NCBI GenBank assembly: GCA_946479905.1
Contig: CAMLIA010000022.1
Span: 1-34,766, forward strand
Direction: 5' to 3'
DNA length: 34,766 nucleotides
DNA from: an uncultured Frankiales bacterium
GTDB lineage: Bacteria > Actinomycetota > Actinomycetes > Mycobacteriales > SCTD01
A program made the translations under genes and the position numbers. The notes under the pieces are model-generated. The model searched no databases, was not told where the DNA came from, and saw only the letters and a list, made by a program, of their open reading frames with translations. Positions 4,596 through 30,451 of this stretch are shown here, one piece after another (the first letter of the stretch is position 1; every line of letters starts with the position of its first letter).

Positions 4596-4624
4596 TTGGT
4601 ATACCAGTTCGGCAGCCGGGTCAA
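4596..4624 (-). promoter_or_regulatory. Promoter with TGGTATACCA operator for serine hydrolase/aldose epimerase
   Basis: The perfect palindrome TGGTATACCA lies at 4597-4606. On the minus strand a TTGACC -35 (4624-4619) is followed after 17 bases by TACCAA (4601-4596) as a possible -10, so the palindrome covers the -10 and a bound repressor would block RNA polymerase. The same palindrome recurs at 27508 and 30442. Sites of this form with central TA are known for GntR-family regulators such as UxuR/ExuR and FadR-like proteins. Confidence 0.65.
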
Positions 4625-4633
4625 GCGATTCCG

Positions 4634-4648
4634 GGCAATCGTATTGCC
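4634..4648. repeat. Inverted repeat GGCAAT-CGT-ATTGCC
   Basis: Perfect 6-bp arms with a 3-base centre, in the intergenic region between the divergent serine hydrolase and ABC exporter genes. Immediately to the left, TCAAGCGATT (4621-4630) matches the first ten bases of the LacI-type palindrome found elsewhere in the locus with one mismatch. Together they may be a degenerate regulatory site; function unproven. Confidence 0.35.
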
Positions 4649-4736
4649 GGGCGCCGGCACCCGCTGGCCCGATAGGGTTTGGCTGTTCGTTGGACAGCAT
4701 TACTAACCCGGCCCAGGGGGTGTCGACATCTCTGCC

Positions 4737-10285: not shown

Positions 10286-10360
10286 GGTCCAGGTGGTCTG
10301 TCGCCGTACCATGCGCACAGTGCCCGAGCGCGCCGCGACCGAGGGGAGGTGCCGAGCGCG

Positions 10361-11410
10361 ATGTACACGCCTGAGCGGCGACCCACCATCCTCGACGTGG
10401 CGAAGCTCGCCGGAGTCGACCGGGCACTCGTCTCACGCGTCATGAACGCCGACCCGAAGCTGTCCATCCGGCAGGAGACCCGGGAACGCATCCTGGCTGC
10501 CGTCGCCGAGCTCCGCTACGAGCCGAACGCCAACGCGCGGAGCCTGCGCACGTCCCGGTCCGGCATCATCGGGCTGGTCATCCCCGACTTCGAGAACCCC
10601 GTGTACGCAGCGATCATCAAGGGCGCCGAGGCCGCCGCCACCGAGAGCGGCCAGTTCCTCCTGACCGGCAGTGCAGGCGACGGGGCGCAGGAGCCCGGCC
10701 GCTTCCTCGACCTCCTGCACCAGCAGCGGGTCGACGGGCTGCTCATCGCAGGACCATCGATCCCGGAGAAGGCGCTCCGGGCGATGTCCAGCGCCGGCCG
10801 CCCGTGGCTCTACCTCAACCGTCGCGTGGGCGCCGTCTGGCGCTACGCGATCCTCGACGACGAAAAGGCGGCCCGGATGGCCGTGGACCACCTCGTCGAG
10901 CTGGGGCACCAGCGCATCGCCTGTGTGGCAGGACCTCCGACGGCAGACACGGCACGGCGCCGCAAGACGGGGTACACCCGCGCGCTGCAGCGCCATCAGC
11001 TCGCGACCGGTCCCGAGCTCATCGCCTCGGGTCCGTACACGGTGGCTGGCGGCGTCGAAGCCGTGGAGGAGCTCCTGTCCCTGGGGGCCAGGTTCACCGC
11101 CCTCGTGGTGGCCAACGTCGCCATGGCCGTGGGTGCCCTGGCTGCCCTTCGTCGCGCCGGCCACCGGGTGCCGGAGGACGTCAGCGTGGTGGCTATCCAC
11201 GACCTTCCACTGGCGGCGTCTCTGACGCCGGCCCTCACCTCGGTGCGGATGCCCCTCATCGAGCTCGGGCGGCGAGGCGTTGAGATCCTGAGAGCTCTCC
11301 ACAGCGCCGACGAGCCCGTCACGGAGGTCGTCCGCGAGCCGATGGAGCTGATCGTCCGTGACTCCACGGCGCCACCCCCCACCGCGGCGCGCAGGCGCGC
11401 TTCAGGCTGA
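10361..11410 (+). CDS. LacI-family transcriptional regulator
   Basis: A 349-residue LacI/GalR repressor. The N-terminal helix-turn-helix (TILDVAKLAGVDRALVSRVM, residues 9-28) and hinge (NANARSLRTSRSGIIGL) are followed by a periplasmic-binding-protein-like effector domain that should bind a sugar or sugar acid. The recognition helix carries Asp-Arg-Ala before Leu-Val-Ser-Arg. The ATG at 10361 is preferred over the GTG at 10349 because GGGGAGG at 10342-10348 lies 12 bases upstream of the ATG and directly abuts the GTG. It is the only regulator in the window and is the natural candidate to bind the palindrome TCAATCGATTGA at 14445 and 15951, whose central CG fits LacI-type operators (inference). 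A TACCAT at 10307-10312 could be its own -10. Confidence 0.9.
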   Translation: MYTPERRPTILDVAKLAGVDRALVSRVMNADPKLSIRQETRERILAAVAELRYEPNANARSLRTSRSGIIGLVIPDFENPVYAAIIKGAEAAATESGQFLLTGSAGDGAQEPGRFLDLLHQQRVDGLLIAGPSIPEKALRAMSSAGRPWLYLNRRVGAVWRYAILDDEKAARMAVDHLVELGHQRIACVAGPPTADTARRRKTGYTRALQRHQLATGPELIASGPYTVAGGVEAVEELLSLGARFTALVVANVAMAVGALAALRRAGHRVPEDVSVVAIHDLPLAASLTPALTSVRMPLIELGRRGVEILRALHSADEPVTEVVREPMELIVRDSTAPPPTAARRRASG

Positions 11411-11445: not shown

Positions 11446-12486
11446 CTAGGGCTCCGGGAAGACGGCCTGCTGCAGGCCGCGGATGTAGCCGAACGCGTAG
11501 AGACGGCCCAGGGTGGCGTAGCCGGGCCGCGCGTTGTCCTCGCCGGCCAGCGTGGGCACGTGGTCAGGGCGGAGCGGACCGCTGAAGCCGACCTCGCGGT
11601 AGGCCCGCATGCACTCGACCATGTCGGTCTTGCCCTCGTCGTGGAACACCTCGATGAAGGAGTCGGCGTCACCGACGACGTCGCGGAAGTGCACGAACGC
11701 GATGCGGTCGCGGGCACCGAACTCGCGGATGACCGACGGCAGGTCGTCGGTCATCAGCGTCACGTTCCCCTGGCACAGCGTGATGCCGTTGGCGGGGCTG
11801 TCGACGATGTCGAACACCCGTCGGTAGGCGTCGAGGGACCGGATGATGCGAGGCACCCCGCGGACGCTCTCGAGCGGCGGGTCGTCGGGGTGCAGCCCGA
11901 GGCGTACGCCCGCCTGCTCCGCGGCCGGCACCACGGCCTCGAGGAAGTAGCCCAGCGCGGCCCAGAGCTGGTCGTCGGTGATGTCGCCGGGCTCGACCAG
12001 ACGCCCAGCCGCATCGCTCACCGAGCGGTCGAACCCGGTCGACAGGGCGCCACCGCGCAGCGGCACCTCGGTGGCCGTGCGGGCCCAGCTCCCGATGGCC
12101 ATCCAGTTGTAGCAGAGGACTCCGATCCCGGACTCGCCCATCGCGTGGATCTGGTCGATGACGTGCTCGATCTGCTCGTCGCGCCCCGGCAGGCCGAGCC
12201 GGACGAGGTCCATGGGTGCGGTGTCCTCGACGGCCGCGATCGTCAGCCCCACCTTCGCGTACTCGTTCTGCAAGGCGGCCAGCGCCTTCTTCTCCCACGG
12301 CCGCTCGCCCTTGGGCGGCACGTGGTAGGGGAGTGGGGCGGACCCCGTCGAGGCGCCGCGCAGCCAGCGAGCCTGCTGCTCGGCGCCGGGGAGGATCGCG
12401 ACGACGTGGTCGACGCCGACCTGCTTCACGAGCTGCCAGGTGAGGCTGGGCTCGGGGTCGAGGAGCTCGCTGATCAGGATGCTCAT
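11446..12486 (-). CDS. Mannonate dehydratase (UxuA)-like TIM-barrel enzyme, paralogue 1
   Basis: A 346-residue relative of D-mannonate dehydratase. The motifs CYNW (125-128) with the following W-A-R-T, HPDDPP (199-204), LCQGN (Cys238), VHFRD (His266) and RPDH (Asp308) match the family, and the His199/Cys238/His266/Asp308 set corresponds to the metal ligands described for UxuA. It is shorter than E. coli UxuA (394 residues) and diverged, so the substrate may be another sugar acid. Its stop lies 35 bases from the convergent LacI stop. It follows the E1 beta gene by 7 bases and belongs to the operon starting at 14412 under the TCAATCGATTGA site. It would remove water from an aldonate to give a 2-keto-3-deoxy acid. 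A second paralogue is at 25589. Confidence 0.8.
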   Translation of the reverse strand: MSILISELLDPEPSLTWQLVKQVGVDHVVAILPGAEQQARWLRGASTGSAPLPYHVPPKGERPWEKKALAALQNEYAKVGLTIAAVEDTAPMDLVRLGLPGRDEQIEHVIDQIHAMGESGIGVLCYNWMAIGSWARTATEVPLRGGALSTGFDRSVSDAAGRLVEPGDITDDQLWAALGYFLEAVVPAAEQAGVRLGLHPDDPPLESVRGVPRIIRSLDAYRRVFDIVDSPANGITLCQGNVTLMTDDLPSVIREFGARDRIAFVHFRDVVGDADSFIEVFHDEGKTDMVECMRAYREVGFSGPLRPDHVPTLAGEDNARPGYATLGRLYAFGYIRGLQQAVFPEP

Positions 12487-12493
12487 GCGGCGT

Positions 12494-13474
12494 TCACGCG
12501 CGCACGAGCTTGGTCGCGGCCTCGACGATGTCCGGGACCTGTGGGAGCCAGGTCTGCTCGAGGCTCTCGGCGTACGGCACGGGCATGTCGAGCCCGCCGA
12601 GCCGTGCCACGGGGGCGTTGAGCCGGTCGAACAGCTGCTCGGTCACGGTGGCCGCGATCTCCGCGCCCGGTCCGGTGCTGCGGTGGGCCTCGTGCACGAC
12701 GAGCAGCCGGCCGGTGCGGGCGACGGAGTCGCACACCGTCTCGTAGTCGAAGGGGACGAGCGTCCTCGGGTCGATGACCTCGGCCTCGATGCCGGAGGCG
12801 GCGAGCTCGGTGGCCGCGGCCTCGCAGGACCCGGCCATCGCCGACCAGCTGACGATCGTCAGGTCACGGCCGGGACGCCGGACCGCGGCCTTCCCGAAGG
12901 GCACGAGGTGCTCGCCGTCCGGGAGGTCGCCCTTCACGCCGTACAGCTTCTTGTGCTCGATGACGATGCTCGGGTCGTCCAGTCGCAGTGCCGTGGCGAG
13001 CAGCCCCTTCGCATCGGCGGGCGTCGACGGCACCGCGACCGCGAAGCCGGGCAGGTGCATGAAGAGCGCCTCGAACGACTGCGAGTGCTGGGCGCCGGTG
13101 CCGCTGCCGACGCCCTGCTGCGTGCGTACGACGAGAGGAACCCGCCACTGGTCGCCGGACATCAGCCGCATCTTGGCGGCCTGGTTGAAGAGCTGGTCGG
13201 CGGCCACGAGTGCGAAGTCCATGAACATGAGCTCCACGACCGGGCGCTTGCCCGACATGGCCGCGCCGATCGCCGCGCCGAGGAAGCCGGCCTCGGCGAT
13301 GGGGGTGTCGACCACGCGCTGCAGCCCGAACTCGGCGAGCAGCCCCTCCGTCACCTTGAACACGCCGCCGTACTCGGCGATGTCCTCGCCGACGAGCAGG
13401 ATCGACGGGTCGCGGCGCATGCCCTCCTGCAGCGCCTCACGGAGAGCCTCGCGGTACGTCGAGGATCGGCTCAT
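12494..13474 (-). CDS. 2-oxo acid dehydrogenase E1 component, beta subunit
   Basis: A 326-residue protein of the pyruvate/acetoin/branched-chain oxo-acid dehydrogenase E1 beta family. It has the N-terminal TYREALREAL helix, the thiamine-diphosphate-contacting Glu30 in VGEDIAEYGG, the GAQHSQS loop with the active-site His, and the C-terminal transketolase-like domain with RRPGRDLTIV and PRTLVPFD motifs. It starts at ATG 13474, overlapping the stop of the alpha subunit by four bases (ATGA), so the two are made together. An upstream extension of the frame is a shadow of the alpha gene. No lipoyl E2 or E3 gene lies in the window, so the pair either borrows these from elsewhere or acts as a stand-alone thiamine-dependent decarboxylase or ligase. 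Confidence 0.9.
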   Translation of the reverse strand: MSRSSTYREALREALQEGMRRDPSILLVGEDIAEYGGVFKVTEGLLAEFGLQRVVDTPIAEAGFLGAAIGAAMSGKRPVVELMFMDFALVAADQLFNQAAKMRLMSGDQWRVPLVVRTQQGVGSGTGAQHSQSFEALFMHLPGFAVAVPSTPADAKGLLATALRLDDPSIVIEHKKLYGVKGDLPDGEHLVPFGKAAVRRPGRDLTIVSWSAMAGSCEAAATELAASGIEAEVIDPRTLVPFDYETVCDSVARTGRLLVVHEAHRSTGPGAEIAATVTEQLFDRLNAPVARLGGLDMPVPYAESLEQTWLPQVPDIVEAATKLVRA

Positions 13475-14412
13475 CGCGTGCTCGTCATGTAGTCCGCGAC
13501 GCCGAGGCGCAGGTCGGCGACGTCCGGCTGGGGCGCGGCCCACGCCGCGGCCTCCGCGGCGGCGAGCTCGGCGGCGACCCGGTCCCTGGTCGATTCCACC
13601 TCGGGCACCGGGAGTCGGGCCTCGACCGCGGCGATCGGGTCGAGGCGCAGCCAGGTCTCGACCTCGGTGGGGTCGCGGTAGGCCCCGACGTCGCCCGTCA
13701 TGTGCCCGCAGAAGCGGTAGGTCTTGGCCTCGATGAGCGTCGGGCCCCTTCCGGCGCGGGCGGTCTCGGCAGCGGAGGCCACAGCGTGAGTGACCGCCTC
13801 CAGGTCCATGCCGTCGACGATGGTCGCGTCCATGCCGTAGGCGTCCGCGCGGTCGGCGAGGTCTGTCACGTTGACCATGCGGTCGATGCGCGTCATCTCC
13901 GACCAGACGTTGTTCTCGCACAGCAGGATGAGGGGGAGCGACCAGATGGCCGCCAGGTTCATCGCCTCGTGCCAGGCGGCCTGGTTGGTCGCACCGTCAC
14001 CGAACACGGCGACGGTCACCGCCTGGGTGCCGTCGAGCTTGGCCGCCCAGGCGCTGCCGCAGGCGATCGGGACGTTGGCGGCGACGATCGCGTTCGAGGG
14101 CAGCACATGGTGCTCGCGGGAGCCGAAGTGCTTCGACCCGGCCCGTCCACGGGCCATGCCCGTGTCCCTGCCCAGGATCTCGGCGAAGGCGGCCTGGAGT
14201 GGGACGCCCCAGGAGAGGGCGTAGTTGTGACCCCGGTACGTCGGTGCGACCACGTCGCCCGCGCGCGTGCCCAGGCGTGCCCCGACGGCCACGGCCTCCT
14301 GTCCGATGCCAAGGTGGCACGACCCCCGCACCTTGCCCTCGGCGAACAGGGTCTGCACCCGCTCCTCGAAGCCCCGGCAGCGCAGCATCATCTCGTAGGC
14401 ATCGCGCAGCAC
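13471..14412 (-). CDS. 2-oxo acid dehydrogenase E1 component, alpha subunit
   Basis: A 313-residue thiamine-diphosphate enzyme subunit. The motif GDG (138-140) through CENN (165-168) is the classic cofactor and magnesium site; SKHF (His95) and the 'CHLGIGQEAV' stretch (about 32-41) match acetoin and branched-chain oxo-acid E1 alpha chains. Length is slightly below the family's usual 320-400. The GTG start at 14412 lies only six bases after a TAAGGT -10 candidate, so the mRNA may be leaderless. It is the first gene of the operon E1 alpha, E1 beta, UxuA-like, controlled by the palindrome at 14445-14456. The oxo acid used is unknown; pyruvate or a sugar-derived 2-oxo acid from this locus is likely. 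Confidence 0.9.
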   Translation of the reverse strand: MLRDAYEMMLRCRGFEERVQTLFAEGKVRGSCHLGIGQEAVAVGARLGTRAGDVVAPTYRGHNYALSWGVPLQAAFAEILGRDTGMARGRAGSKHFGSREHHVLPSNAIVAANVPIACGSAWAAKLDGTQAVTVAVFGDGATNQAAWHEAMNLAAIWSLPLILLCENNVWSEMTRIDRMVNVTDLADRADAYGMDATIVDGMDLEAVTHAVASAAETARAGRGPTLIEAKTYRFCGHMTGDVGAYRDPTEVETWLRLDPIAAVEARLPVPEVESTRDRVAAELAAAEAAAWAAPQPDVADLRLGVADYMTSTR

Positions 14413-14418
14413 AGTCGC

Positions 14419-14456
14419 ACCTTAGAAATCGCCCGTTCGGATTGTCAATCGATTGA
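14419..14456 (-). promoter_or_regulatory. Promoter with TCAATCGATTGA operator for the E1/UxuA-like operon
   Basis: The perfect 12-bp palindrome TCAATCGATTGA lies at 14445-14456. On the minus strand a consensus TTGACA (14448-14443) overlaps it, and after 18 bases TAAGGT (14424-14419) is a good actinobacterial -10. The GTG start follows six bases later. A LacI-type repressor bound here would cover the -35. The identical palindrome occurs at 15951. Confidence 0.75.
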
Positions 14457-14790: not shown

Positions 14791-14830
14791 GAGCAGCACT
14801 GTCGCGCACGTGCAGTCGGCGAAAGGACTT

Positions 14831-14847: not shown

Positions 14848-14848
14848 A

Positions 14849-19271: not shown

Positions 19272-19324
19272 CCCCCTCCGGGGCGGATAGCCTCACCGAA
19301 CTTCGAGACAGATGCGAGGGACTT

Positions 19325-20152: not shown

Positions 20153-21180
20153 CCACCGCACAGGTCCCGGCCTCCCGCCCGCGTCACGACCGCCGTGGTG
20201 CCCCAGGCGCCTGTCTTGCCACCCGGCTGGCGCACGGCGACGTGGACCGCGAGCGTCATGCCCGCCTCGACGGTCACGCCCGTCCCAGCGATGAGCTGGG
20301 GGATCTCGGGAGTGTCCGCTCCGACACCGTGGCCGAAGTCGTACTCCTTGTACGGCAGCAGTCCTCGGGCCGCCAGCTCCTTGTCCCCGGCCGCGACGAC
20401 CTCGTCCACGGTGACGCCCGGACGCAGCGCGTCGAGCAGCACCTGTCGCACGGCGTGCACGTCCTCCAGGGCGCCGTCGGAGGGCAGGATCGTGTCGAGG
20501 ACGTGGACGCAGGCTCCCCGCCAGGTGAGGGTGACCTCGAAGCCGATCGGGTCCTCGGGCCCGGCGACCTGCCCGGTGGCCTCGGTGATGACGGCGCCGC
20601 GGCCGATGCCCACGAGGCACAGGCACCGCGAGGCACCCAGTCGGCGGGCGGCTCCTTCTACCTGCGCGGCGAGCTGGAAGTCGCTCACCCCGACCTGGTA
20701 GGACTCGCGCGCCGCCGCGACCGCCTGCCAGGCGACCTGTGTGGCGCTCTGCAGGTGGTCGATCTCGACCGGTGACTTGACGGCCCGCCACCGGTCGACG
20801 ACAGGCTGCCGGTCGAGCAGCTCGACGCCCGACTCCTGGGCCCACCGCGACAGCCCGATCGGTGTCTCGTTCACGGCGAGATCCCCTGCGACCAGGACGA
20901 TCCGCTGCGCGCTCCCGGGCACGAGCAGCTGGGGGCTCGCGACGGCTGAGACCGGCAGTTGCGACGCCGCTGCCGCCCGGTCGACGTCGAAGGGAAACCG
21001 CACGCCGAGCCGCTCCGAGCCGTCGACCCCGACCCAGAGGACGGTCCAGTTGGACAGGTAGCCCGGGAAGTAGCCGGCGAACCAGGCCACCGTCGCGCGG
21101 CGCCACGAGAAGACGAGGGCACCCTGGGCACCCTCGGCGCGGGCGAGCTCCCGGAGCTGCTCGCGTCGGGTGTCGCTCAC
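20140..21180 (-). CDS. M24 (pita-bread) fold hydrolase with altered metal site
   Basis: A 346-residue protein with the creatinase/prolidase arrangement: an N-terminal creatinase-like domain, then a linker KSPVEIDHL and the pita-bread domain. In active metallopeptidases five ligands (Asp, Asp, His, Glu, Glu) bind two metals. Here the aligned positions appear to be Glu215, His226, His284, His313 and Thr328, so only the GHG histidine (FGHGVG) is kept. As in creatinase itself, a metal-free hydrolysis or C-N cleavage is likely rather than dipeptide cleavage. Start GTG 21180 overlaps the upstream stop (GTGA). It is the last gene of the eight-gene operon and ends inside the 3' end of the convergent lactonase gene. 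Substrate unknown. Confidence 0.75.
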   Translation of the reverse strand: MSDTRREQLRELARAEGAQGALVFSWRRATVAWFAGYFPGYLSNWTVLWVGVDGSERLGVRFPFDVDRAAAASQLPVSAVASPQLLVPGSAQRIVLVAGDLAVNETPIGLSRWAQESGVELLDRQPVVDRWRAVKSPVEIDHLQSATQVAWQAVAAARESYQVGVSDFQLAAQVEGAARRLGASRCLCLVGIGRGAVITEATGQVAGPEDPIGFEVTLTWRGACVHVLDTILPSDGALEDVHAVRQVLLDALRPGVTVDEVVAAGDKELAARGLLPYKEYDFGHGVGADTPEIPQLIAGTGVTVEAGMTLAVHVAVRQPGGKTGAWGTTAVVTRAGGRDLCGGQSR

Positions 21181-22118
21181 GCGTTCAGCACCGCCCGCTC
21201 GGCCGGGTACCGGGTCCACACCCGCCGCTCCGGGTCGGACACGAGCGCCTCGAACGACCGCGTGACGACCTCCTCGAGCGTCTCCGCACCGGGACGCACG
21301 AGCCCCGCGCTCGTCGCCCGGGTCGTGTCGAGCAGGTAGTCGACGTTGGGGAACGGGAAGAGCAGGTCGCCCTTGTCGAACACGGTCGGGTCGACCGGTG
21401 CGAACTGGAGCAAGGGGGAGCGGCCCGCCACCGTGGCGCACACCTCGATCAGGTCCAGCGGCGTGAAGGTCCCTGGCGCTGCGAGGTTGTACGCCGTGAA
21501 GGGCTCCGACACCTCCAGCTCGAGTGCCTGCGCGAAGGCGTACGCCGAGTCCTCGGTGCTGATGTGCTGCAGCCGGCCGCGACCGTCGCCGGGGACCAGC
21601 ACCACCTGCTCGTCGAGCAGACGGTTGAGCACGAACTCCTCGCGATCGGCGTAGTTGCGCGGCCCGAGGACGAAGGGGAACCGCAGGCTGACCACGGGCG
21701 CCTTGGCGGCCTCGCGCAGGACCTGCTCGCAGCCGAGCTTCTCGACCGCGTAGTCCCCCCAGAGCGCCCAGGGTCCGTCCGGGGCGTCCTCGTGCCACGG
21801 CTGCGCGCTGTCGGGGGAGTACACCGCGCCAGTGGAGCAGTGCACGATCCGCCCGACGGGCGGCAGGTGCTCGAGGAGCTTCGTCGTCTGCGCGGTCGTG
21901 TAGGCGGAGAAGTCGACGACGGCGTCGAGGTCGAGGCGGCTCAGCTGCACGAGGTCCGCCGGTGCGTCGCGATCGCCCACCAGGTGGTGCACCCCTGCCG
22001 GCACCGGCCCTGACGTGCGGCCCCGGTTGAAGGTCCAGACCTCGTGCCCGCGCCGCTGCAGCTCGACGACGGTGGCCAGGCCGGCGAACCGGCTGCCGCC
22101 CATGACGAGGACCCTCAT
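21177..22118 (-). CDS. NAD-dependent epimerase/dehydratase (extended SDR)
   Basis: A 313-residue extended short-chain dehydrogenase. The N-terminal nucleotide-binding motif is GGSRFAG, an atypical form seen in CSP41/isoflavone-reductase-like proteins, followed by FNRGR. The catalytic Tyr-x-x-x-Lys is in GDYAVEKLG, with a Ser/Thr in HCSTGAVY. The second half has RFPFVLGPRNY and HISTED, characteristic of nucleoside-diphosphate-sugar epimerase relatives. Start ATG 22118 was preferred over the frame's first ATG at 22133 because it directly precedes the Rossmann strand and makes a 4-base overlap with the upstream stop. It may epimerise or oxidise a free sugar derivative of this pathway; a nucleotide sugar is not required. 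Substrate unknown. Confidence 0.8.
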   Translation of the reverse strand: MRVLVMGGSRFAGLATVVELQRRGHEVWTFNRGRTSGPVPAGVHHLVGDRDAPADLVQLSRLDLDAVVDFSAYTTAQTTKLLEHLPPVGRIVHCSTGAVYSPDSAQPWHEDAPDGPWALWGDYAVEKLGCEQVLREAAKAPVVSLRFPFVLGPRNYADREEFVLNRLLDEQVVLVPGDGRGRLQHISTEDSAYAFAQALELEVSEPFTAYNLAAPGTFTPLDLIEVCATVAGRSPLLQFAPVDPTVFDKGDLLFPFPNVDYLLDTTRATSAGLVRPGAETLEEVVTRSFEALVSDPERRVWTRYPAERAVLNA

Positions 22119-22984
22119 GGCACCTCCACCCACTCCACGCCGAGGGAGGGAGCAAGCTCCCGGATGCTGGCAAGAGCAGCCATCGACGCCTCGCGCGGGA
22201 GGTGCTCGACGACCAGCGTGATCGGGTCATCGAGCCGGGCGGCGTTGTCCATGAACGCTTGCACGTCGAGGTAGCCCTCGCCGGGCGCGACCTCGTCCAG
22301 GTGCAGCACGATGTCGGCCCGGACGGTGACGTCCTTGAGGTGCGCGCTGGCGGCGTACCTGGTCCCGACCACGTCGACCATGCGCGTCATGGCGGCCGCG
22401 TTGCCGTAGACGTCGTCGAGGCTCGCCAGCAGGTTCACCGGGTCGAAGTTGGCCAGCACCCATGGCGAGTCGACCCGGTCGAGCACCTCGCGGATGACTT
22501 CGGGGCGCGACATGGTCGTGAGCTGGTGGCACTCGATGAGGACGGGCACGCCGACGTCCTCGGCCGCACGGGCCGCGAGGGTCAGGGAGTCGACGAGCCG
22601 GTCGACCGTCTGTGGCGCGTGGTTGTCCGGGTGCGGGCCGTAGAAGAAGGTCGGGTGCAGGGTGCCGCAGCCGGTGATGAGTGACTCCGCCCCCAGCTGC
22701 GCCGCGGTGAGCAGCGCCTCGCGCAGCCGCTCGAGCTCGTGCGCCCGCTCCGCCTCGTCGGCGCAGACCAGGTTCGCGCTGACGCCGGCTGCCTGGGCGA
22801 TCACCACACCTGCGTCGGCCAGCCTCTTCCTGGCCGCTTCGGCAGCAGGCGTGGGTCGTTGGGCTTCCAGGTGCGTGACCAGCACCGAGACGCCCGCCTC
22901 TCGCAGCGGTCCGAGGTTGTCCTCCGTGAGGCCGTCGAGGGTGCGCGGGACCAAGGGTCCCGCGATGCCGAGTCGCGCCTTCAC
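22115..22984 (-). CDS. Sugar phosphate isomerase/epimerase-like TIM-barrel protein
   Basis: A 289-residue protein of the xylose-isomerase-like / AP-endonuclease-2 TIM-barrel family. Metal ligand positions are visible as the Glu of VLIECHQL, the Asp of LANFDPVN, the His of SAHLKDV and the Glu of LVVEHLP. Such proteins are keto-sugar isomerases, epimerases or, in some glycoside-oxidising operons, eliminases that act on 3-keto sugars. The start is a GTG at 22984 overlapping the SDR stop (GTGA), and its stop overlaps the next ATG. The upstream frame is only a shadow of the SDR gene. It probably works with the neighbouring SDR and epimerase on the same sugar. Exact reaction unknown. Confidence 0.8.
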   Translation of the reverse strand: MKARLGIAGPLVPRTLDGLTEDNLGPLREAGVSVLVTHLEAQRPTPAAEAARKRLADAGVVIAQAAGVSANLVCADEAERAHELERLREALLTAAQLGAESLITGCGTLHPTFFYGPHPDNHAPQTVDRLVDSLTLAARAAEDVGVPVLIECHQLTTMSRPEVIREVLDRVDSPWVLANFDPVNLLASLDDVYGNAAAMTRMVDVVGTRYAASAHLKDVTVRADIVLHLDEVAPGEGYLDVQAFMDNAARLDDPITLVVEHLPREASMAALASIRELAPSLGVEWVEVP

Positions 22985-23742
22985 AGGTCGCGTACCGTCG
23001 CTTCCGACCACACCCCGCGCCCGTTGAGTGCCATGCCCGGGCAGGTCGCGGCGTAGTGCACCGCCTGGGCGACCTCGGCCGCCTCCTGGAACCGCCCGCT
23101 GGGTACGCCGGCCAGGCGGCGCTCGACGAACTCCTGAAGGGTCAGTCCTTCCGCGGCCGCCAGCCCGGGTCCGAGGCCGGACCACATGCCTTCGAGCACG
23201 TTGCCTGGGTACACAGCCGTGCAGCAGATGAGGTCGTCAGCGCAGGCGTGCGAGAGGCTCTGGGTCAGGTGGTTGAGAGCGGCCTTGCTGGCGCCGTACG
23301 CCGCGAGGAGCGGCCGACCGTGGTGCGCCGCGCCGGAGGTGATGTTGACGATGCGGCCGCGGCACCCGGTGGCGTTGGGCTCCTGCTTGCGGAACACCTC
23401 GACGGCCGCCTGGGACAGCCGGAGCGGGACGCCCACGTTGATGAGCATCGTGAGCTCCCAGCCGTGGCCCTCCTCCAGCACCGGCGTCACCGCCGCGCGG
23501 CCGGCGTTGTTCACGAGCACGTCGAGCCGGCCGAACTGGTCGACCACCTCGGGCACGACCTTCGCCACCGCGGAAAGGTCGGTGAGGTCGGCCTGGATGC
23601 TGTGGGCGAGATCCGCGGACACCGGGTCACGGTCGACACCGACGACCGCGGCGCCCGCGCTCCCCATGCGCTCGGCGATGGCCGCGCCGATGCCCCGCGC
23701 TGCCCCCGTGACGATGACGACCTGATCGGCGAGCGATCCCAT
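22981..23742 (-). CDS. Short-chain dehydrogenase/reductase (second SDR of the operon)
   Basis: A 253-residue classical SDR. Cofactor motif TGAARGIG (about residues 12-19), NNAG (about 85), catalytic Ser in ITSGAAHHG and Tyr-x-x-x-Lys in YGASK. Acidic VGVDRD after the second strand suggests NAD+ preference. Candidate reactions are sugar 1-dehydrogenation or oxidation of a 2-keto-3-deoxy sugar acid at C4. It begins 10 bases after the mutarotase-like gene and overlaps the TIM-barrel gene at its stop. It differs clearly from the other SDR at 26674, so the two probably act at different steps. Confidence 0.85.
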   Translation of the reverse strand: MGSLADQVVIVTGAARGIGAAIAERMGSAGAAVVGVDRDPVSADLAHSIQADLTDLSAVAKVVPEVVDQFGRLDVLVNNAGRAAVTPVLEEGHGWELTMLINVGVPLRLSQAAVEVFRKQEPNATGCRGRIVNITSGAAHHGRPLLAAYGASKAALNHLTQSLSHACADDLICCTAVYPGNVLEGMWSGLGPGLAAAEGLTLQEFVERRLAGVPSGRFQEAAEVAQAVHYAATCPGMALNGRGVWSEATVRDL

Positions 23743-23752
23743 GACGGTCCGA

Positions 23753-24700
23753 TCACCCGATGGAGCTTGAGACGGACAGGCGGGACTCGACGGACAGGCT
23801 CGCGTTGCCGTCGATGCGCAGGGAGGGGAGGCCCGGTCCGCCGGTCGGGGTGCTGGCCGGCTCGATGGCCATCACCCGCGCGCGCTGGAACCACGGGAAC
23901 GCCGGGGTCGCGTTCAGCTCCTGCCACCACCAGGCGTAGGGCAGATGGGTGCCGTCCCACTCCACGGTGACGGTGAGGCCGAGGTCGTGGTTGGTGACGG
24001 AGGCGCGGTGCTCGGCGAAGTCCGAGAGCCAGCCGAAGACCGTGTGCGACGTACCTGGGGCAGGGACGTCGCTCAGGTCGAGTGAGCCGCCCTCGGCCGC
24101 TGCCGCCAACGGCCAGTCGCTGGTCGATCCCGCGGTGAGCGGGCTCGGGTAGTCGGGGTCTGCGGTGAAGCTGCGAGCCCCGGTCTCGATCGTGCACTTG
24201 CCGTCGAGGAACGCCGTGCTCAGCGCCGGGTGCGAGACGTAGTCGACGTCGAGCGTGACGGGGCTGAGGTTGGTCAGCACGTCCACCAGTGAGACGGTGC
24301 CGCCCTGGAGCGAGACGCTGCGCTCGATGGCGAGGGGCACGGAGTAGAGCTCCACCCGCAGGGTTGCGGTGGTGCTCGACGCGCCGACAACGGTCCACGG
24401 CACAGCCCACGCCTCGCCGTGGAAGGGCTGCTGCGAGCCGGCGACCTCTCGCGACGGGCCGCCGCTGGGGCACAGGATGTTCCAGCCGCCGGCGTACCCC
24501 TCGAGGGCTCCCGCCGTCACGTCGGTGCTCCACGTCGGCATCGCGCCCGAGCGGATCGCCTCGGCTCGCTCGTGCCAGGGGGTCGCGGCCAGCACGTCGA
24601 CGCCGCTGACGCGGTGGGTCAGGTGCAGGACGTCGCCGCCCCGTCGGGGGTCGACGACGACGTCGAGCTGCTCGTTGGAGAGTGTGAGGAGCCGGCTCAT
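23753..24700 (-). CDS. Aldose 1-epimerase-like (galactose mutarotase superfamily) protein
   Basis: A 315-residue beta-sandwich protein of the galactose mutarotase-like superfamily, with the opening VDPRRGGDVLHLTHR and the segment YAGGWNILCPSGGP, close to the DUF4432/aldose-epimerase-like group. A His is present in YVSHPALS and the C-terminal WFQRARVMAIEPAS has the glutamate in the position of the epimerase base. The classical GVHPY motif is absent, so activity may differ from the protein at 2452. Start ATG 24700 is three bases after the SMP-30 stop. It likely converts anomers or binds the sugar before oxidation. Confidence 0.75.
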   Translation of the reverse strand: MSRLLTLSNEQLDVVVDPRRGGDVLHLTHRVSGVDVLAATPWHERAEAIRSGAMPTWSTDVTAGALEGYAGGWNILCPSGGPSREVAGSQQPFHGEAWAVPWTVVGASSTTATLRVELYSVPLAIERSVSLQGGTVSLVDVLTNLSPVTLDVDYVSHPALSTAFLDGKCTIETGARSFTADPDYPSPLTAGSTSDWPLAAAAEGGSLDLSDVPAPGTSHTVFGWLSDFAEHRASVTNHDLGLTVTVEWDGTHLPYAWWWQELNATPAFPWFQRARVMAIEPASTPTGGPGLPSLRIDGNASLSVESRLSVSSSIG

Positions 24701-24703
24701 CGC

Positions 24704-25576
24704 TCAGCCCGCGAAAGCGCTGACGGGGACGCCGAGCGTGCCCGAGGCGAGCGCGAAGACCGAGCCGGCGTGCGGCTGCTCCGCGAGGGCCTGTTCGTCC
24801 AGGCCGTGCGACGCCGACGTGATGTAGAGCGTGCCGTCCGCGGCGAACGCGCAGCTGGACGGCTGGGCCACAGACATCTCCACTCTCGCGACGACCTCGC
24901 CGGCAGGACTGATGCGGAGCACCTCCCAACCACCCCAGACCGCGACCCAGATGAAGCCGTCGATGTCGACGGCGAGGCCGTCGGGCAGGCCGGACTCGAT
25001 CTTGGCGAGCACCTCGAAGCCGCCGACCGTCCCGTCGGTCGCGTCGAAGCTGGCCGACATGAGGGTGTTGGCGAAGCTGTCGACGAGGTACATCGTCCGG
25101 TCGTCCGGGCTCCACCCGAGCCCGTTGGGGAGGATCAGCCCGTCGGTCGCGACCCGGCTGGGACCGCTGCCGTCCCACACGTGCAGGGTGCCGACGCCGG
25201 GCACGAACTCCATGTGGTTGCTCCCCGCCCACAGCCGACCGGCCGAGTCGCACTTGGCGTCGTTCATGCGTCGGTGTGCCTCGGGCAGCACCGGGTCGAC
25301 GACGTCGAGCTTGCCGTCGGTCACGAGGCCGAAGCCGTCCGCGACGGCGACCGCGAAGCCCGCAGCGTCGGCCCGCGGTACGGCGGCGCCGAGCATCATC
25401 GGCAGCTGGGTGACCGCCTGGGCGCCGGTGCCCAGGTCGTTCTCGAAGAGCTGACCCTCCATGATGTCGACCCAGACCAGTCGGTCGGTTCGCGCGTCGA
25501 AGACCGGTCCCTCGCCGACCAAGGCGCGGGCCCGGACGACGACGTCGGGTGCGGGCAGGACGGTGACGTCTCCCAT
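24704..25576 (-). CDS. SMP-30/gluconolactonase family lactonase
   Basis: A 290-residue six-bladed propeller lactonase. The metal Glu is in LVGEGPVFD near the N-terminus, the middle blades have ILPNGLGWSPD with the conserved Asn and VDSFAN with Asp, and GLAVDIDGFIWVAVW is the family's signature strand. It hydrolyses an aldonolactone such as those produced by SDR-type sugar dehydrogenases. GAAGGGAAAG precedes the ATG at 25576. The gene sits between the UxuA-like dehydratase and the mutarotase-like gene, the expected order of an oxidative sugar pathway. It is a different family from the amidohydrolase lactonase at 19325, so the locus has two lactonases. Confidence 0.88.
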   Translation of the reverse strand: MGDVTVLPAPDVVVRARALVGEGPVFDARTDRLVWVDIMEGQLFENDLGTGAQAVTQLPMMLGAAVPRADAAGFAVAVADGFGLVTDGKLDVVDPVLPEAHRRMNDAKCDSAGRLWAGSNHMEFVPGVGTLHVWDGSGPSRVATDGLILPNGLGWSPDDRTMYLVDSFANTLMSASFDATDGTVGGFEVLAKIESGLPDGLAVDIDGFIWVAVWGGWEVLRISPAGEVVARVEMSVAQPSSCAFAADGTLYITSASHGLDEQALAEQPHAGSVFALASGTLGVPVSAFAG

Positions 25577-25588
25577 GGTGCTTTCCCT

Positions 25589-26677
25589 TCAGTGGGCGGG
25601 TGCGGGCTCGTTCTCGTGGGCGGCGCGCATGGCAGCTCTCATGTAGCCGAGGGCGTAGGCCATGCCTGCGTGCCAGGAGGCGTCGCAGGTCATCTGCGGG
25701 GTGTGGTCGGGGATGAACACCCCGTCGTACCCGTTGGCGAGGTACGTGTGGAGCGCGCGGAACATGTCGACGTACCCCTCGTCGACGAAGACCTCGTGGT
25801 AGGTCGGCGAGCGCCCGACGACGTTGCGGAAGTGCACGTAGCCGATGCGGTCCTGCTGGGAGAACGCCGCGATGGCGTCGTACACGTCGACGTCGTGCAT
25901 CTCCGAGACCGTGCCCTGGCAGAACTCCAGGCTGTTGCTGGGGCTGGGCACCAGGTCGACCAGTCGCTGCAGGGACTTCTGGTCGGTGAGCAGCCGCGCG
26001 GTGTTGCGCAGCCGCGGCAACGGCGGGTCGTCAGGGTGCGCGCACAGGCGCACACCTGCCTGCTCCGCGACAGGTACGGCGGCATTCAGGAACACGCTGA
26101 TGCGCTCCCACATCTCCTCGACCTCGACAGGGCCGATCGTGGTCGTCTCGTCGGGGTTGCCGTAGGTCATGTTCCAGACCTGGCCGACGGGGATCTCCGG
26201 CTGCTCGCCGACAGCCTCGGCGTCGAACCCGATCGACTCGGCACCACCTCGGGCGTACGGCCCGCGGAGGTGACCCCACACGCCGGCGAGGCTGAAGTTG
26301 TAGCCCAGTCGCGGGATGCCGGCCTCGCCGAGCAGCCGGATCGACTCGAGCACGCCCTCGATCTGCTCCTCGCGCTTCGGCCCGGCCAGCAGGATGTCGT
26401 GCCAGTGGCCCGGGTCGATGTTCTCGACCGCGTGCAGGACCAGGCCCTGGTCCTCGACCAGCTTCTTGACGCCCTCGATCTCCTCGAGCGTCCACGGCTT
26501 GCCGACCCGGTGCGTGGGTCCCCAGCCGGCGCTCTTGGAGACCGAGGAGGGGATCTGCGGACCACCGCTGAAGTAGTCGACGAGGTGGGCCACGATGTGG
26601 GTCGCGCCGGCCTGCTTGGCGAAGCGCAGGTTGTCCTCCGTGAGCATGTGCCGGTAGAGGCCCAGGCCGAGCTTCAT
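25589..26677 (-). CDS. Mannonate dehydratase (UxuA)-like TIM-barrel enzyme, paralogue 2
   Basis: A 362-residue UxuA-family protein. HPDDPP (214-219), FCQGT (Cys253), VHFRN (His282) and IPDH (Asp324) keep the family's metal set. The substrate loop differs from paralogue 1: GYNF (125-128) replaces CYNW, and the following W-A-R-T is W-G-H-L-R. The ATG at 26677 is the right start: it overlaps the SDR stop (ATGA) and begins with a proper first barrel strand, while the longer frame is a shadow of the SDR. It probably dehydrates or isomerises a sugar acid made by the preceding SDR and lactonase. A separate IlvD-type dehydratase at 28698 lies in the same gene block, so the two may use different acids. 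Confidence 0.8.
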   Translation of the reverse strand: MKLGLGLYRHMLTEDNLRFAKQAGATHIVAHLVDYFSGGPQIPSSVSKSAGWGPTHRVGKPWTLEEIEGVKKLVEDQGLVLHAVENIDPGHWHDILLAGPKREEQIEGVLESIRLLGEAGIPRLGYNFSLAGVWGHLRGPYARGGAESIGFDAEAVGEQPEIPVGQVWNMTYGNPDETTTIGPVEVEEMWERISVFLNAAVPVAEQAGVRLCAHPDDPPLPRLRNTARLLTDQKSLQRLVDLVPSPSNSLEFCQGTVSEMHDVDVYDAIAAFSQQDRIGYVHFRNVVGRSPTYHEVFVDEGYVDMFRALHTYLANGYDGVFIPDHTPQMTCDASWHAGMAYALGYMRAAMRAAHENEPAPAH

Positions 26678-27489
26678 ACGCCGAGCCGGGCGAGCAGGCC
26701 GCCGTCGACCTGGTAGCAGGCACCGGTGATCACGCGGGCCTTCCCACTGGACAGGAACAGGATCAGCTCGGCGACGTCCTCGGGCTCGGTGAGGAAGCCG
26801 ATCGGGTGCATCCGGCCCCACTCCTCCATCCCGGCCTGCGGGTCGTCGGGGAAGAACTCGCGCGCCCCCGCCTCGAGCATCGGGGTGCGCACCGAACCGG
26901 GCGCGATGCAGTTGACCCGGATGCCGTCCTTCGCGTGGTCGAGCGCCATCGTCTTGGTCAGCGACACGACGCCGCCCTTGGACGCCGCGTAGGCCGCCAC
27001 CGTCTGCTGGGTCGCGAAGGCTTGCACCGACGCGGTGTTCACGATCGAGCCGCCGCCTCGCTGCCGCATCGCCGGAATGGCGTGCTTGGCGAGCAGGTAC
27101 GGCGCTTTGAGGTTCGTGTCGAGAACGGCGTCCCAGTCGTCCTCGGAGAAGTCGGGCACCTCGCCGTAGCGGATGATGCCGGCGTTGTTCACCAGGATGT
27201 CGAGCCCGCCGAAGTGCCCCACGACCTGCTCGACGAAGCCGCGGGCGGCGTCGCTGGAGCGCACGTCACCGGTCAGGGCGACGGCAGAGCCGCCGGCGGT
27301 GGTGATCTCCTTGACCACCGACTCCGCCGCCTCGGCGTCAAAGTCGACGACCCCGACAGCGGCGCCGCGCGTGGCGAACGCCTGGGCGGCCGCGGCGCCG
27401 ATGCCCTTGCCGGCGCCCGTGACGAGAGCGACCTTGGCGACGAAGTCATTCGATTGAGCAGCACCCGGCACAGCGAGCGGTCCCTTCAC
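26674..27489 (-). CDS. Short-chain dehydrogenase/reductase (first gene of the eight-gene operon)
   Basis: A 271-residue classical SDR. Cofactor motif TGAGKGIG (about residues 24-31), GVVDFD acidic cap for NAD+, NNAGI (about 105-109), catalytic Ser in NTASVQAF and Tyr-x-x-x-Lys in YAASK, then the usual IAPGSVRTP and YQVDGG ends. A sugar 1-dehydrogenase or 2-keto-3-deoxy acid dehydrogenase role fits. The GTG start at 27489 gives an unusual 16-residue N-terminal extension before the first strand; a GTG at 27471 is an alternative. No Shine-Dalgarno is evident. It is preceded by the operator at 27508, and its first codons contain a one-mismatch copy of the LacI-type palindrome. Confidence 0.88.
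   Translation of the reverse strand: MKGPLAVPGAAQSNDFVAKVALVTGAGKGIGAAAAQAFATRGAAVGVVDFDAEAAESVVKEITTAGGSAVALTGDVRSSDAARGFVEQVVGHFGGLDILVNNAGIIRYGEVPDFSEDDWDAVLDTNLKAPYLLAKHAIPAMRQRGGGSIVNTASVQAFATQQTVAAYAASKGGVVSLTKTMALDHAKDGIRVNCIAPGSVRTPMLEAGAREFFPDDPQAGMEEWGRMHPIGFLTEPEDVAELILFLSSGKARVITGACYQVDGGLLARLGV
27446..27457. promoter_or_regulatory. Possible LacI-type operator TCATTCGATTGA inside the 5' end of the SDR gene
   Basis: This 12-mer differs from the TCAATCGATTGA palindrome by one base. It lies 32-43 bases inside the SDR coding region, in the non-conserved N-terminal extension, downstream of the TGGTATACCA promoter. It could act as a road-block site linking the two regulons, or be chance. 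Confidence 0.3.
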
Positions 27490-27506: not shown

Positions 27507-27535
27507 GTGGTATACCAATGCTGCGACAGCGTCAA
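27507..27535 (-). promoter_or_regulatory. Promoter with TGGTATACCA operator for the eight-gene operon
   Basis: The palindrome TGGTATACCA is at 27508-27517. On the minus strand TTGACG (27535-27530) followed after 17 bases by TACCAC (27512-27507) gives the same arrangement as at 4597: operator on top of the -10. The -35 overlaps the stop codon of the GH1 gene, so the operon can be transcribed separately from the GH1/dehydratase genes upstream. Confidence 0.65.
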
Positions 27536-28683
27536 GGCAGCGCATTGGCGCGGGCGACGTCGCCGTACCAGCGGGCGCTCGGGCGGACCGTGCGCTCGAA
27601 GGTGCGCAGGTCCACCCCCACCAGACCGAAGGTGGGCTCGTAGCCGAGCGTCCACTCGAAGTTGTCGAGCAGCGACCAGTAGAAGTAGCCGCGCACGTCG
27701 ATGCCGTCGCTGATGGCCTCGTGCACGCTCGTCAAGGCACGTCGCACGTAGTCCAGGCGCTGCGCGTCGTCCGCGGTGGCGATGCCGTTCTCGGTGATGT
27801 AGACGGGCTTGCCCGTCACAGCAGCGGTACGTCGGACCGCGCGCCCCACGGCCTCCGGCCGGTAGAGCCAGCCGATCATCGGCAGGACCACCTCGTCCGG
27901 TCCCCCTGCGACCGGGCCGTCGGGCCCGATGACGGTGTCCGTGTAGGTCTGCACGCCGATGAAGTCGTCGTCAGTCGTCGCCTCGAGGTAGACGTCCGTG
28001 CCGCGGGTGTACTCCTTGGCCGCCTGCTCGCCGCCCGGCTGCACGTCCAGGCCGGAGATGGCCATGGTGAGCCCCACCTCCGGCGTACCGGCGTCCTTGA
28101 GCACCTGCACCGACCGGCGGTGGGCGTCGAGCATGATCGCGCGGGCCTCGTGGACGTCGGCGCGCTGAGGGGGCGTCAGGAAGAGGTTGAAGAGCTCGAG
28201 CAGGATGTTCGGCTCGTTGATCGTGCAGACGATGTCGACGTCCTTGAGGACGGGCAGCGCGATCTCGGTGAAGCGGCCGAACCAGTCGATCGACTTGGGG
28301 TTGGTGAAGCTGCCCTCCCGGGTGAACCACTGCGGGCTGGTGAAGTGGTGCAGCGTCACGACGGGCTTGATCCCCGCGTCGAGGCAGGTGTCGACCATCC
28401 GCCGGTAGTGCGCCAGCGCGGCCCGCGACGTCTCGCCCTCGAACGGCTCGATGCGGCCCCAGTCCAGGCTGAACCGGTACGACTGAAGGCCGAGGTCCGC
28501 GACGATCGCGATGTCCTCGGGGTAACGGTGGAAGGAGTCGCAGGCGTCGCCGCTCGGCTCCTTGAAGGGCGATCCCGGCAGCCGCTCGGCGAGCCAGGCG
28601 TCGTTGAGGGAGTTGTTGCCCTCGGTCTGGTGGGCAGCTGTCGCCGTGCCCCACAGGAAATCGTCGGGGAACGCGAGTGTCAT
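27532..28683 (-). CDS. Glycoside hydrolase family 1 beta-glycosidase
   Basis: A 383-residue GH1 enzyme. The N-terminal FLWGTATAAHQTEG, the acid/base Glu157 in TINEPN and the nucleophile Glu298 in YITENG are all present, with LLDNFEW and FGLVGVD at the end. It is about 60 residues shorter than typical GH1 proteins and has no signal peptide, so it acts on imported oligosaccharides or glycosides. The ATG at 28683 is preferred to a TTG at 28686 because AGGAG lies five bases upstream of the ATG. It follows the IlvD-type dehydratase by 14 bases in the same transcript. Beta-glucosidase, galactosidase and fucosidase activities all occur in GH1. Confidence 0.92.
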   Translation of the reverse strand: MTLAFPDDFLWGTATAAHQTEGNNSLNDAWLAERLPGSPFKEPSGDACDSFHRYPEDIAIVADLGLQSYRFSLDWGRIEPFEGETSRAALAHYRRMVDTCLDAGIKPVVTLHHFTSPQWFTREGSFTNPKSIDWFGRFTEIALPVLKDVDIVCTINEPNILLELFNLFLTPPQRADVHEARAIMLDAHRRSVQVLKDAGTPEVGLTMAISGLDVQPGGEQAAKEYTRGTDVYLEATTDDDFIGVQTYTDTVIGPDGPVAGGPDEVVLPMIGWLYRPEAVGRAVRRTAAVTGKPVYITENGIATADDAQRLDYVRRALTSVHEAISDGIDVRGYFYWSLLDNFEWTLGYEPTFGLVGVDLRTFERTVRPSARWYGDVARANALP

Positions 28684-28697
28684 CAAGGCTCCTGGGT

Positions 28698-30389
28698 CTA
28701 GTGCGACTCGCGGGGGATCCCCGCCCGCTCGCCGCCGACGAGGAAGTCGAGGTCGGCGCCGAGGTCGGCCTGAAGCACGTGGTCGACGTACATCCGCTCG
28801 TAGCCGCGGGTCGCCGGCCAGGTGGGCGTGACGCTCTCGCCCAGCCGCTTCGCGATCTCCGCGTCGTCGACCTCGAGGTGCAGCGAGCCGTTCGGGACGT
28901 CGAGGCTGATCATGTCGCCGGTGCGTACCGCGGCCAGCGGACCACCGGCGGCGGCCTCGGGGGCGACATGCAGGACGACCGTGCCGTAGGCCGTTCCGCT
29001 CATCCGGGCGTCGGAGATGCGCACCATGTCGCGCACGCCCTGCGAAAGGATGGCCTTGGGTAGCGCGAAGTTGCCGACCTCGGGCATGCCCGGGTAGCCC
29101 TTCGGCCCGCAGCCGCGCAGGACGAGCACGTCGTCGGGGGAGATGTCCTCGGTGTCGATCCGGTCGTGCAGGTCCTCGACCGAGTCGAAGACCACGGCCC
29201 GGCCGCGGTGCGTGAGCAGCTCGGGCGTCGCGGCGGACGGCTTGATCACCGCGCCGTTGGGCGCGAGGTTCCCGCGCAGCACGCGGATCCCGGCGTTCGG
29301 CTCGACCTCGCGGATGACCTCGTCGTTCCAGATCTGACCCCGGGCCGCAGCATCACCGATCGTTTCCCCCGAGACCGTTAGCGCCTTGGTGTCGAGGCGG
29401 TCGCCGAGCTCGCCGAGCACGGCGGCCAGGCCGCCGGCCTCGAAGAAGTCCTCCATGAGGAACCGGCCCGAGGGCTTGAGGTCGACCAGCAGCGGGATGT
29501 CGGCGCCGAGCTCGTCGAAGTCGTCGAGGGAGAACGGGATGTTGAGGCGGCCGGCGAGGGCCAGCAGGTGCACCACGGCGTTGGTCGAGCCGCCGAGCGC
29601 CGCGGTGACCCGGACGGCGTTCTCCAGCGAGCCGCGGGTGACGATCGAGCTGAAGGTGACGTCCTGCTTGACCAGCTCGACGATGCGTCGGCCGGTCAGG
29701 TGAGCGCCCCGCAGCCGTCGGGTGTCCGGGCCGGGAAGCGCCCCGAGCTCGGGCAGCGACAGGCCGAGGGCCTCGACGAGGCAGGACAGCGTCGACGCGG
29801 TGCCCATGGTGTTGCAGAAGCCCGTGCTGCGCGTCATGCACGACTCGGCCGCGGTGAACTCCTCGGGCGTCATGGTCCCCGCACCGACGTCCTCGCTGAA
29901 CTTCCAGACGTCGGTACCTGAGCCGAGGGGCCGGCCTCGGTAGCTGCCGTTGAGCATCGGGCCGCTGGTGACGACCATCGTCGGCAGGTCGGCGCTGGCC
30001 GCACCCAGCAGCATCGACGCCGTCGTCTTGTCGCAACCGCAGAGCAGCACGACCCCGTCGAGGGGGTTCATCCGGATCGACTCCTCGACCGACATGCTCA
30101 TGAGGTTGCGGTAGAGCATCGCCGTGGGGCGGACCAGGCTCTCGCCCAGGGACATGGTGGGGATGACCAGGGGGAGGGCCCCCGCCTCCCAGACGCCCCG
30201 CTTGACGTGCTCGGCCACGGTGTCCAGGTGCAGGTTGCAGGGCGCGGCCTCCGACCAGCTGGTCAGGATGCCGATCACCGGGCGCCCGTCGAACGCGTCG
30301 TCCGGCAGGCCCCGCTTCATCCAGCTCCGGTGGATGAACGCGTCCCGGCTCTGGCCGCTGAACCAGGCAGGGGATCTCAGCTCCGTCAC
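28698..30389 (-). CDS. IlvD/EDD-family sugar-acid dehydratase (L-arabonate dehydratase-like)
   Basis: A 563-residue iron-sulfur dehydratase. The cluster cysteines are Cys51 (EAAPCNLH), Cys119 (LLCGCDKTT) and Cys192 (GFCNTMGTAS), with the D-K metal-site pair after Cys119. The opening (DAFIHRSWMKRG) is characteristic of the pentonate/hexonate branch rather than of IlvD proper. It removes water from an aldonate to give a 2-keto-3-deoxy acid. The GTG at 30389 was chosen because the longer frame to 30485 crosses the divergent promoter and operator; TATTAC lies seven bases upstream, suggesting a leaderless transcript. It heads the transcript with GH1 and is divergent from the sulfatase. In known L-fucose pathways this step usually uses an enolase-type enzyme. 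Confidence 0.9.
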   Translation of the reverse strand: MTELRSPAWFSGQSRDAFIHRSWMKRGLPDDAFDGRPVIGILTSWSEAAPCNLHLDTVAEHVKRGVWEAGALPLVIPTMSLGESLVRPTAMLYRNLMSMSVEESIRMNPLDGVVLLCGCDKTTASMLLGAASADLPTMVVTSGPMLNGSYRGRPLGSGTDVWKFSEDVGAGTMTPEEFTAAESCMTRSTGFCNTMGTASTLSCLVEALGLSLPELGALPGPDTRRLRGAHLTGRRIVELVKQDVTFSSIVTRGSLENAVRVTAALGGSTNAVVHLLALAGRLNIPFSLDDFDELGADIPLLVDLKPSGRFLMEDFFEAGGLAAVLGELGDRLDTKALTVSGETIGDAAARGQIWNDEVIREVEPNAGIRVLRGNLAPNGAVIKPSAATPELLTHRGRAVVFDSVEDLHDRIDTEDISPDDVLVLRGCGPKGYPGMPEVGNFALPKAILSQGVRDMVRISDARMSGTAYGTVVLHVAPEAAAGGPLAAVRTGDMISLDVPNGSLHLEVDDAEIAKRLGESVTPTWPATRGYERMYVDHVLQADLGADLDFLVGGERAGIPRESH

Positions 30390-30394
30390 GATGT

Positions 30395-30451
30395 TAGTAA
30401 TACCACGTTTCAAACCGGTCTGAGCGGGTTCCTTCCCAGAGTGGTATACCA
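30395..30451. promoter_or_regulatory. Divergent dehydratase/sulfatase promoter with TGGTATACCA site and a variant copy
   Basis: TGGTATACCA at 30442-30451 ends five bases before the sulfatase ATG; its TATACC (30445-30450) is a plausible -10 with the start codon six bases later. On the minus strand, TGGTATTACTA (30405-30395) is a near-palindromic variant overlapping a possible TATTAC -10, seven bases before the dehydratase GTG. The two sites are about 46 bases apart. No convincing -35 is seen on either strand. Confidence 0.6.

Follow-up and report, generated by a model that had tools for sequence, protein, structure and literature searches.

Two kinds of described regulon come closest to the locus analysed here. 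In LacI-family sugar regulons, as set out in the available parts of the literature (PMC4052901; RhaR of Actinomycetales, PMC3870299), the regulator combines a LacI helix-turn-helix with a sugar-binding domain, its gene lies in the cluster, and its sites, even palindromes with a central CG, stand just upstream of catabolic or uptake genes; across the family, even palindromes mostly have this central CG (PMC4052901, in the part available). The FadR subfamily of GntR regulators, which includes UxuR, ExuR, DgoR and GntR, recognises sites composed of TKGT/ACMA boxes, with GT and AC usually 3 nt apart and 2 nt apart in UxuR and others, and acts on targets of the sugar-acid type (PMC4494728, available part). 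The Streptomyces regulators of hydroxyproline and gluconate use are also FadR-subfamily proteins controlling carbon catabolism in Actinomycetes, as we predict here (PMC6608401, PMC5425828, both as available in part). One of them, the repressor HypR, has a site of its own that covers a -10 region, and its motif, CTNTGC(A/C)ATGTCAC, is unlike the TTGGTATACCA motif described below; for SCO1678, no description of the operator was found for comparison in the available parts of the same two papers.

The stretch of DNA studied here (the window; 34,766 bases, 70.7% GC) would, from its composition and its relatives, be an actinobacterial sugar-catabolic cluster, and it resembles both kinds of system (Table 1). 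It encodes a LacI-family protein and carries an even, central-CG palindrome, TCAATCGATTGA, just upstream of catabolic genes. It also carries three copies of TGGT-AT-ACCA, upstream of genes of the sugar-acid type; the sequence fits the TKGT/ACMA boxes of the FadR subfamily, and its GT and AC are 2 nt apart, as in UxuR, within the subfamily's 2-3 nt (PMC4494728, available part). We propose that the two palindromes are the operators of two local repressors, one of the LacI and one of the GntR family, each with its own units, and we hold this to be quite probable. It is a new assignment of known operator kinds, and one local LacI together with a GntR encoded elsewhere is ordinary regulatory logic. 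Among the matches listed in the open-licence literature, judged by title and abstract start, none described these operators together with these genes, and of those containing any of six motif strings none, by title, concerned a LacI regulator; a Helicobacter NikR paper among those matches contains two of the six.

Table 1. Predicted operators, regulator gene and transcription units (positions are those of the whole window)
Feature	Position	Strand	Remarks
LacI-family regulator gene	10349..11410	+	Pfam, sequence, orthologues; predicted TCAATCGATTGA binder
LacI-type operator TCAATCGATTGA	14445..14456		32 bp upstream of E1 alpha gene (13471-14412, -)
LacI-type operator TCAATCGATTGA	15951..15962		shared by two divergent genes, 31 bp from the called start of either (15919 -, 15994 +)
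Predicted LacI-controlled operon	11446..14412	-	TPP-type E1 alpha 13471-14412, E1 beta 12494-13486, UxuA-like 11446-12486
Predicted LacI-controlled operon	14467..15919	-	GFO/IDH dehydrogenase 14849-15919, RhaM-like mutarotase 14467-14784
Predicted LacI-controlled operon	15994..20152	+	GHL6-type hydrolase 15994-17940, PcaB/adenylosuccinate-lyase-type lyase 17937-19271, L-fuconolactonase-like amidohydrolase 19301-20152
GntR-type operator TGGTATACCA	4597..4606	TTGGTATACCA on +	39 bp upstream of beta-lactamase-fold hydrolase gene (3370-4557, -)
GntR-type operator TGGTATACCA	27508..27517	TTGGTATACCA on -	18 bp upstream of SDR start GTG 27489
GntR-type operator TGGTATACCA	30442..30451	TTGGTATACCA on -	5 bp from sulfatase ATG 30457 (+), 49 bp from GTG 30392 (-)
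Possible weaker FadR-type sequence TAGTAATACCA	30395..30405		GT, 3 nt, AC (spacing rule of PMC4494728, available part); adjoins IlvD-type gene start
Predicted GntR-controlled operon	2452..4557	-	beta-lactamase-fold hydrolase 3370-4557, aldose epimerase 2452-3360; predicted from the operator at 4597
Predicted GntR-controlled operon	20140..27489	-	eight genes: SDR, UxuA-like (25589-26821), SGL lactonase, DUF4432, SDR, TIM-barrel, epimerase, M24-type; predicted from the operator at 27508
Predicted GntR-controlled operon	27532..30392	-	IlvD/Edd-type sugar-acid dehydratase 28698-30392, GH1 27532-28686; predicted from the operator at 30442
Predicted GntR-controlled sulfatase gene	30457..31866	+	operator ends 5 bp before ATG

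A sequence-only reading of this DNA had reported two copies of TCAATCGATTGA and three of TGGTATACCA, all of them intergenic, and an exact scan, shuffled sequences and our gene calls agree with it on both points. With up to two mismatches allowed, TCAATCGATTGA has four matches in the window against a shuffle mean of 0.28 (at least four in 0/100 dinucleotide shuffles). The three exact copies of TGGTATACCA compare with a shuffle mean of 0.03 (at least three in 0/100 dinucleotide shuffles), and a search of the window with up to one mismatch gave no extra copy; all three read TTGGTATACCA on one strand. By our gene calls the five palindromes fall within intergenic sequence, which amounts to 1,782 of the 34,766 bases, a placement that for the 30442 copy depends on the IlvD-type gene starting at GTG 30392, as the longest IlvD-type ORF (start TTG 30485) would include it. 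The start of the first SDR gene, taken as GTG 27489, is likewise a gene-call choice that affects the layout.

The pairing of the LacI protein with its site is well supported by comparison with other genomes, and binding of the one to the other is predicted. PF00356, PF13377 and PF00532 all match the protein above cut-off, giving a helix-turn-helix and a periplasmic-binding-protein-like domain, and the recognition-helix region reads VDRALVSRVMN. Orthologues 52-59% identical to it were found in 12 genomes, from the genera Paractinoplanes, Kineosporia, Nonomuraea, Jiangella, Nocardia, Actinomadura, Conexibacter, Actinoallomurus, Pseudonocardia and Amycolatopsis. The window's own 12-mer TCAATCGATTGA, used here before any generalisation of the motif to TCAAWCGWTTGA, is present with 0-1 mismatch in 11/12 of these orthologue loci; the site is absent from the 21 kb of the other locus (L011), and the genome concerned has one beside another lacI orthologue. 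The form common to the orthologue loci, TCAAWCGWTTGA, was derived from those same 12 loci, so that its counts are partly circular, and it has 20 exact copies in their 233 kb against none in five shuffles, and 32 copies in the 12 whole genomes against one in seven comparison genomes. Its reversed control is found 0 times in the 12 orthologue genomes and twice in all 19, and no exact TCAAWCGWTTGA occurs in 68 distant LacI loci (1.17 Mb). The TCAATCGATTGA-type site is thus an even palindrome with a central CG which is conserved among orthologues of the regulator, and its earlier designation as a LacI-type operator is borne out by the contrast between orthologous and distant LacI loci.

The genes beside these sites also recur. 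For 19 of the 20 copies in these loci, a match to a pathway gene (SDR, GFO, solute-binding protein, lyase, E1, amidohydrolase or GH95) starts no more than about 230 bp away; six of the neighbour-labelling queries, here and for the copies outside these loci, were taken from the relatives. Of the 12 copies outside these loci, seven adjoin lyase, SDR or GH95 genes, one of the seven also adjoining a lacI orthologue; the remaining five comprise three by distant LacI genes, one in the coding sequence of a nitrile hydratase and one that precedes a TetR gene. Many random copies within coding regions would have spoken against an operator, and the 12 orthologue genomes gave the opposite, with 26/32 copies of TCAAWCGWTTGA at pathway genes, three at other LacI genes and three without assignment. 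At the distant LacI genes of loci L146 and L147 (33% and 37%), which TCAAWCGWTTGA sites adjoin, solute-binding-protein genes are near.

We propose that the LacI protein binds TCAATCGATTGA and controls the E1 alpha/E1 beta/UxuA-like, the GFO/RhaM-like and the GHL6/lyase/fuconolactonase-like units, with an L-fucose-type sugar, or the corresponding lactone or acid, as the most likely releasing effector. In the relatives, E1 homologues follow the LacI-type site, and GH95 (PF22124) and sugar ABC uptake genes lie under it. The window's amidohydrolase is nearest to the L-fuconolactonase model, yet under its cut-off (180 vs 400 bits), and no GH95 match was seen among the window proteins scanned with Pfam. 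An L-fucose-type substrate for this regulon is suggested by the GH95 and sugar ABC genes of the relatives together with the fuconolactonase-like amidohydrolase. This L-fucose-type set in the relatives differs from the RhaR rhamnose regulon, as does the window's lacI gene in having no copy of TCAATCGATTGA upstream of it (PMC3870299, as available in part). The orthologue loci (L001-L012) and positions 11446-20152 of the window share GFO/IDH, SDR, amidohydrolase, PcaB/adenylosuccinate-lyase-type lyase, TPP E1 alpha/beta and sugar ABC genes, with GH95 in some. No homologues of the window's FAH or UxuA-like proteins were seen in the 12 orthologue loci (9-21 kb each; E 1e-15, at least 30% of the query). 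Tentatively, we suggest that a lyase and a two-subunit TPP E1 may stand in for the expected FAH hydrolase or UxuA-type enzymes, and that TCAAWCGWTTGA sites may trace an oxidative route, widespread in Actinomycetes and uncharacterised, by which L-fucose or a similar 6-deoxy-L-sugar would be broken down. The site provides a testable operator for a LacI group spread across many actinobacterial genera, and the co-regulated genes indicate a route of sugar breakdown in which the lyase and E1 steps await assigned chemistry; the more unusual lead is the lyase-E1 gene set conserved under the LacI-type site.

The TGGTATACCA palindrome is rare. There are 10 copies in 18 genomes (approximately 171 Mb), about one per 17 Mb, against three in the window; at that density 0.002 copies would be expected per window, and the probability of at least three is about 1e-9, as calculated post hoc on the assumption of even density. 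The reversed control has 14 occurrences in the same 18 genomes, so that genome-wide the motif is no more frequent than its control. A GntR-type gene is present in the 3-kb locus around five of the 10 sites, which between them have four distinct genes, and among the five sites that read TTGGTATACCA such a gene is found at four. A larger survey gave the same picture: the 11-mer TTGGTATACCA has 28 unique sites in 26 of 246 Actinomycetes genomes, 13 of them within about 140 bp of a GntR gene (measured to the start of the model match) and one more at 1.4 kb, and reversed TTGGTATACCA has 29 unique sites in the same genomes, with a GntR gene at 0/27 of those with loci. The difference between the motif and its reversed control therefore lies only in position beside GntR genes, not in overall frequency. 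The background is 0.014 GntR genes per 3 kb (7 in 1.54 Mb), taken from loci that are not all actinobacterial (L001-L080 and L114-L143), and the GntR model derives from 29 FCD-type ORFs in three genomes. The link divides by locus GC, with a GntR gene in 14/21 of the 3-kb loci above 60% and 0/7 of those below (L207-L213). In two loci (L199, L201) the called GntR ORF overlaps the site and its true start is unsure.

A GntR domain was present in 9/9 of the linked proteins sampled with Pfam, accompanied by FCD in eight and UTRA in one. Clustering of the 18 linked GntR proteins gives six groups at 45% identity and two at 35%; six groups mean that the link is not one inherited case, and the eight proteins that make up a single 45% group mean that the sites are not all independent. 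Several linked loci have a second near-match around the GntR gene, as in autoregulation. The UxuR site itself, we presume, contains TGGTATACCA. The earlier view of this palindrome as a GntR-type site is supported, and from its genomic neighbours the TTGGTATACCA-form motif is very probably a GntR-type operator, which would make it usable for finding GntR targets far from their regulator. No window-like gene cluster was found in 17 extended motif contexts (18/38 sites of both surveys).

As the sequence-only reading had noted, the window has no GntR gene, by Pfam on the main ORFs or by the GntR/FCD model on ORFs of at least 100 aa. Three genomes have 46, 33 and 26 FCD-domain matches, which makes it plausible that the regulator is encoded elsewhere. 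We propose that this regulator, with its gene outside the window, belongs to the GntR family, probably to the FadR/FCD subfamily, that it recognises TTGGTATACCA, and that the sugar-acid, sulfatase and hydrolase units of Table 1 are under its control, with release probably by a sugar acid. The three sites are identical, so one and the same GntR would act at all of them.

Homologous target clusters were sought with the UxuA-like protein of the eight-gene unit. Matches at E 1e-60 or 1e-80 were found in 0/18, 0/394, 0/298 and 0/297 genomes, in searches run without a known positive and so uninformative alone; at E 1e-20 there were matches in 26/293 genomes of an order-level sample, one of them close (genome G1191, 74-77%). 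In a plasmid collection 135 records match the protein, all below 60% identity. The G1191 cluster contains two UxuA-like genes, DUF4432, SGL and a sugar ABC importer, and at its end (L112:16182-17815) an IclR gene, about 9 kb from the UxuA-like gene, adjoins an FCD-type GntR gene, about 10 kb from it. By eye, an inverted repeat, ATTCATCC...GGATGAAT, can be made out ahead of the GntR gene. TGGTATACCA is absent from the whole of G1191, the sole genome with a close UxuA-like orthologue, and no TGGTATACCA-like operator was seen in this cluster. Thus a GntR accompanies a UxuA-like cluster in one genome, with another operator or other targets. The IlvD-type protein was matched in 82/150 genomes, and among the 30 best loci TGGTATACCA was found in 0/30 at up to one mismatch.

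Another possibility is that TGGTATACCA is the operator of a regulator of another family (IclR, TetR or other), which we regard as unlikely. The IclR gene (Pfam) that shares the G1191 cluster with a UxuA-like orthologue of 77% identity would favour it, though the FCD-type GntR gene adjoins that very IclR gene, and so would the GTTCC/GGAAC-like repeats that were seen by eye, in place of TGGTATACCA, upstream of several IlvD-type genes in relatives (L114-L143). However, TGGTATACCA misfits the published IclR consensuses, GKTYCRY-W3-4-RYGRAMC and TGRAACA-N1-2-TGTTYCA, as given in the available part of PMC8222616, a mismatch on which the IclR operator reading was rejected, and it is the motif and not its reversed control that is placed beside GntR genes. 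It could also be supposed that the palindromes have no regulatory function and arose by chance or as structural repeats. The window does have 93 maximal perfect palindromes of at least 10 bp and 15 recurring palindromic 10-mers, several GC-rich ones among those that recur, and in other genomes neither TGGTATACCA nor its 11-mer form is commoner than its reversed control. Nevertheless, only the TCAATCGATTGA and TGGTATACCA types among the recurring 10-mers have 40% GC or less, every copy is intergenic, and the local density far exceeds the genome rate; the chance explanation, which we consider very improbable, was rejected on the genome counts of TCAAWCGWTTGA, the density of TGGTATACCA and the conserved neighbour genes. 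Neither palindrome is a chance repeat.

There might, finally, be one linked regulon, in which LacI also acts at the SDR operon through a near-match, TCATTCGATTGA (27446-27457), and both regulators meet there. This copy differs from the LacI-type site by one mismatch and sits 50 bp from the TGGTATACCA copy at 27508, but it falls within the first codons of the SDR ORF, the position at which it differs is changed in none of the six one-mismatch sites of the LacI orthologue loci, and no LacI-type site lies near 4597 or 30442. Such linkage seems to us improbable, and TCATTCGATTGA may reflect cross-regulation or chance. We retain the assignment of the two palindromes to a LacI and a GntR repressor with separate units; the division into two regulons drawn in the sequence-only reading stands as a prediction, with both regulator families upheld by the cross-genome tests.

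The suggestion that the palindromes overlap -10 or -35 elements was not confirmed by a strict sigma-70 scan, which was empty in all five palindrome regions. By eye, TTGAC(C/G)-15 nt-TATACC on the minus strand is common to the 4597 and 27508 copies. The operator at 4597 also precedes, by about 130 bp, an ABC exporter gene (4737, +), the first of two overlapping MsbA-like ABC exporter genes (4737-8254) inside the cluster, and it could serve this gene too.
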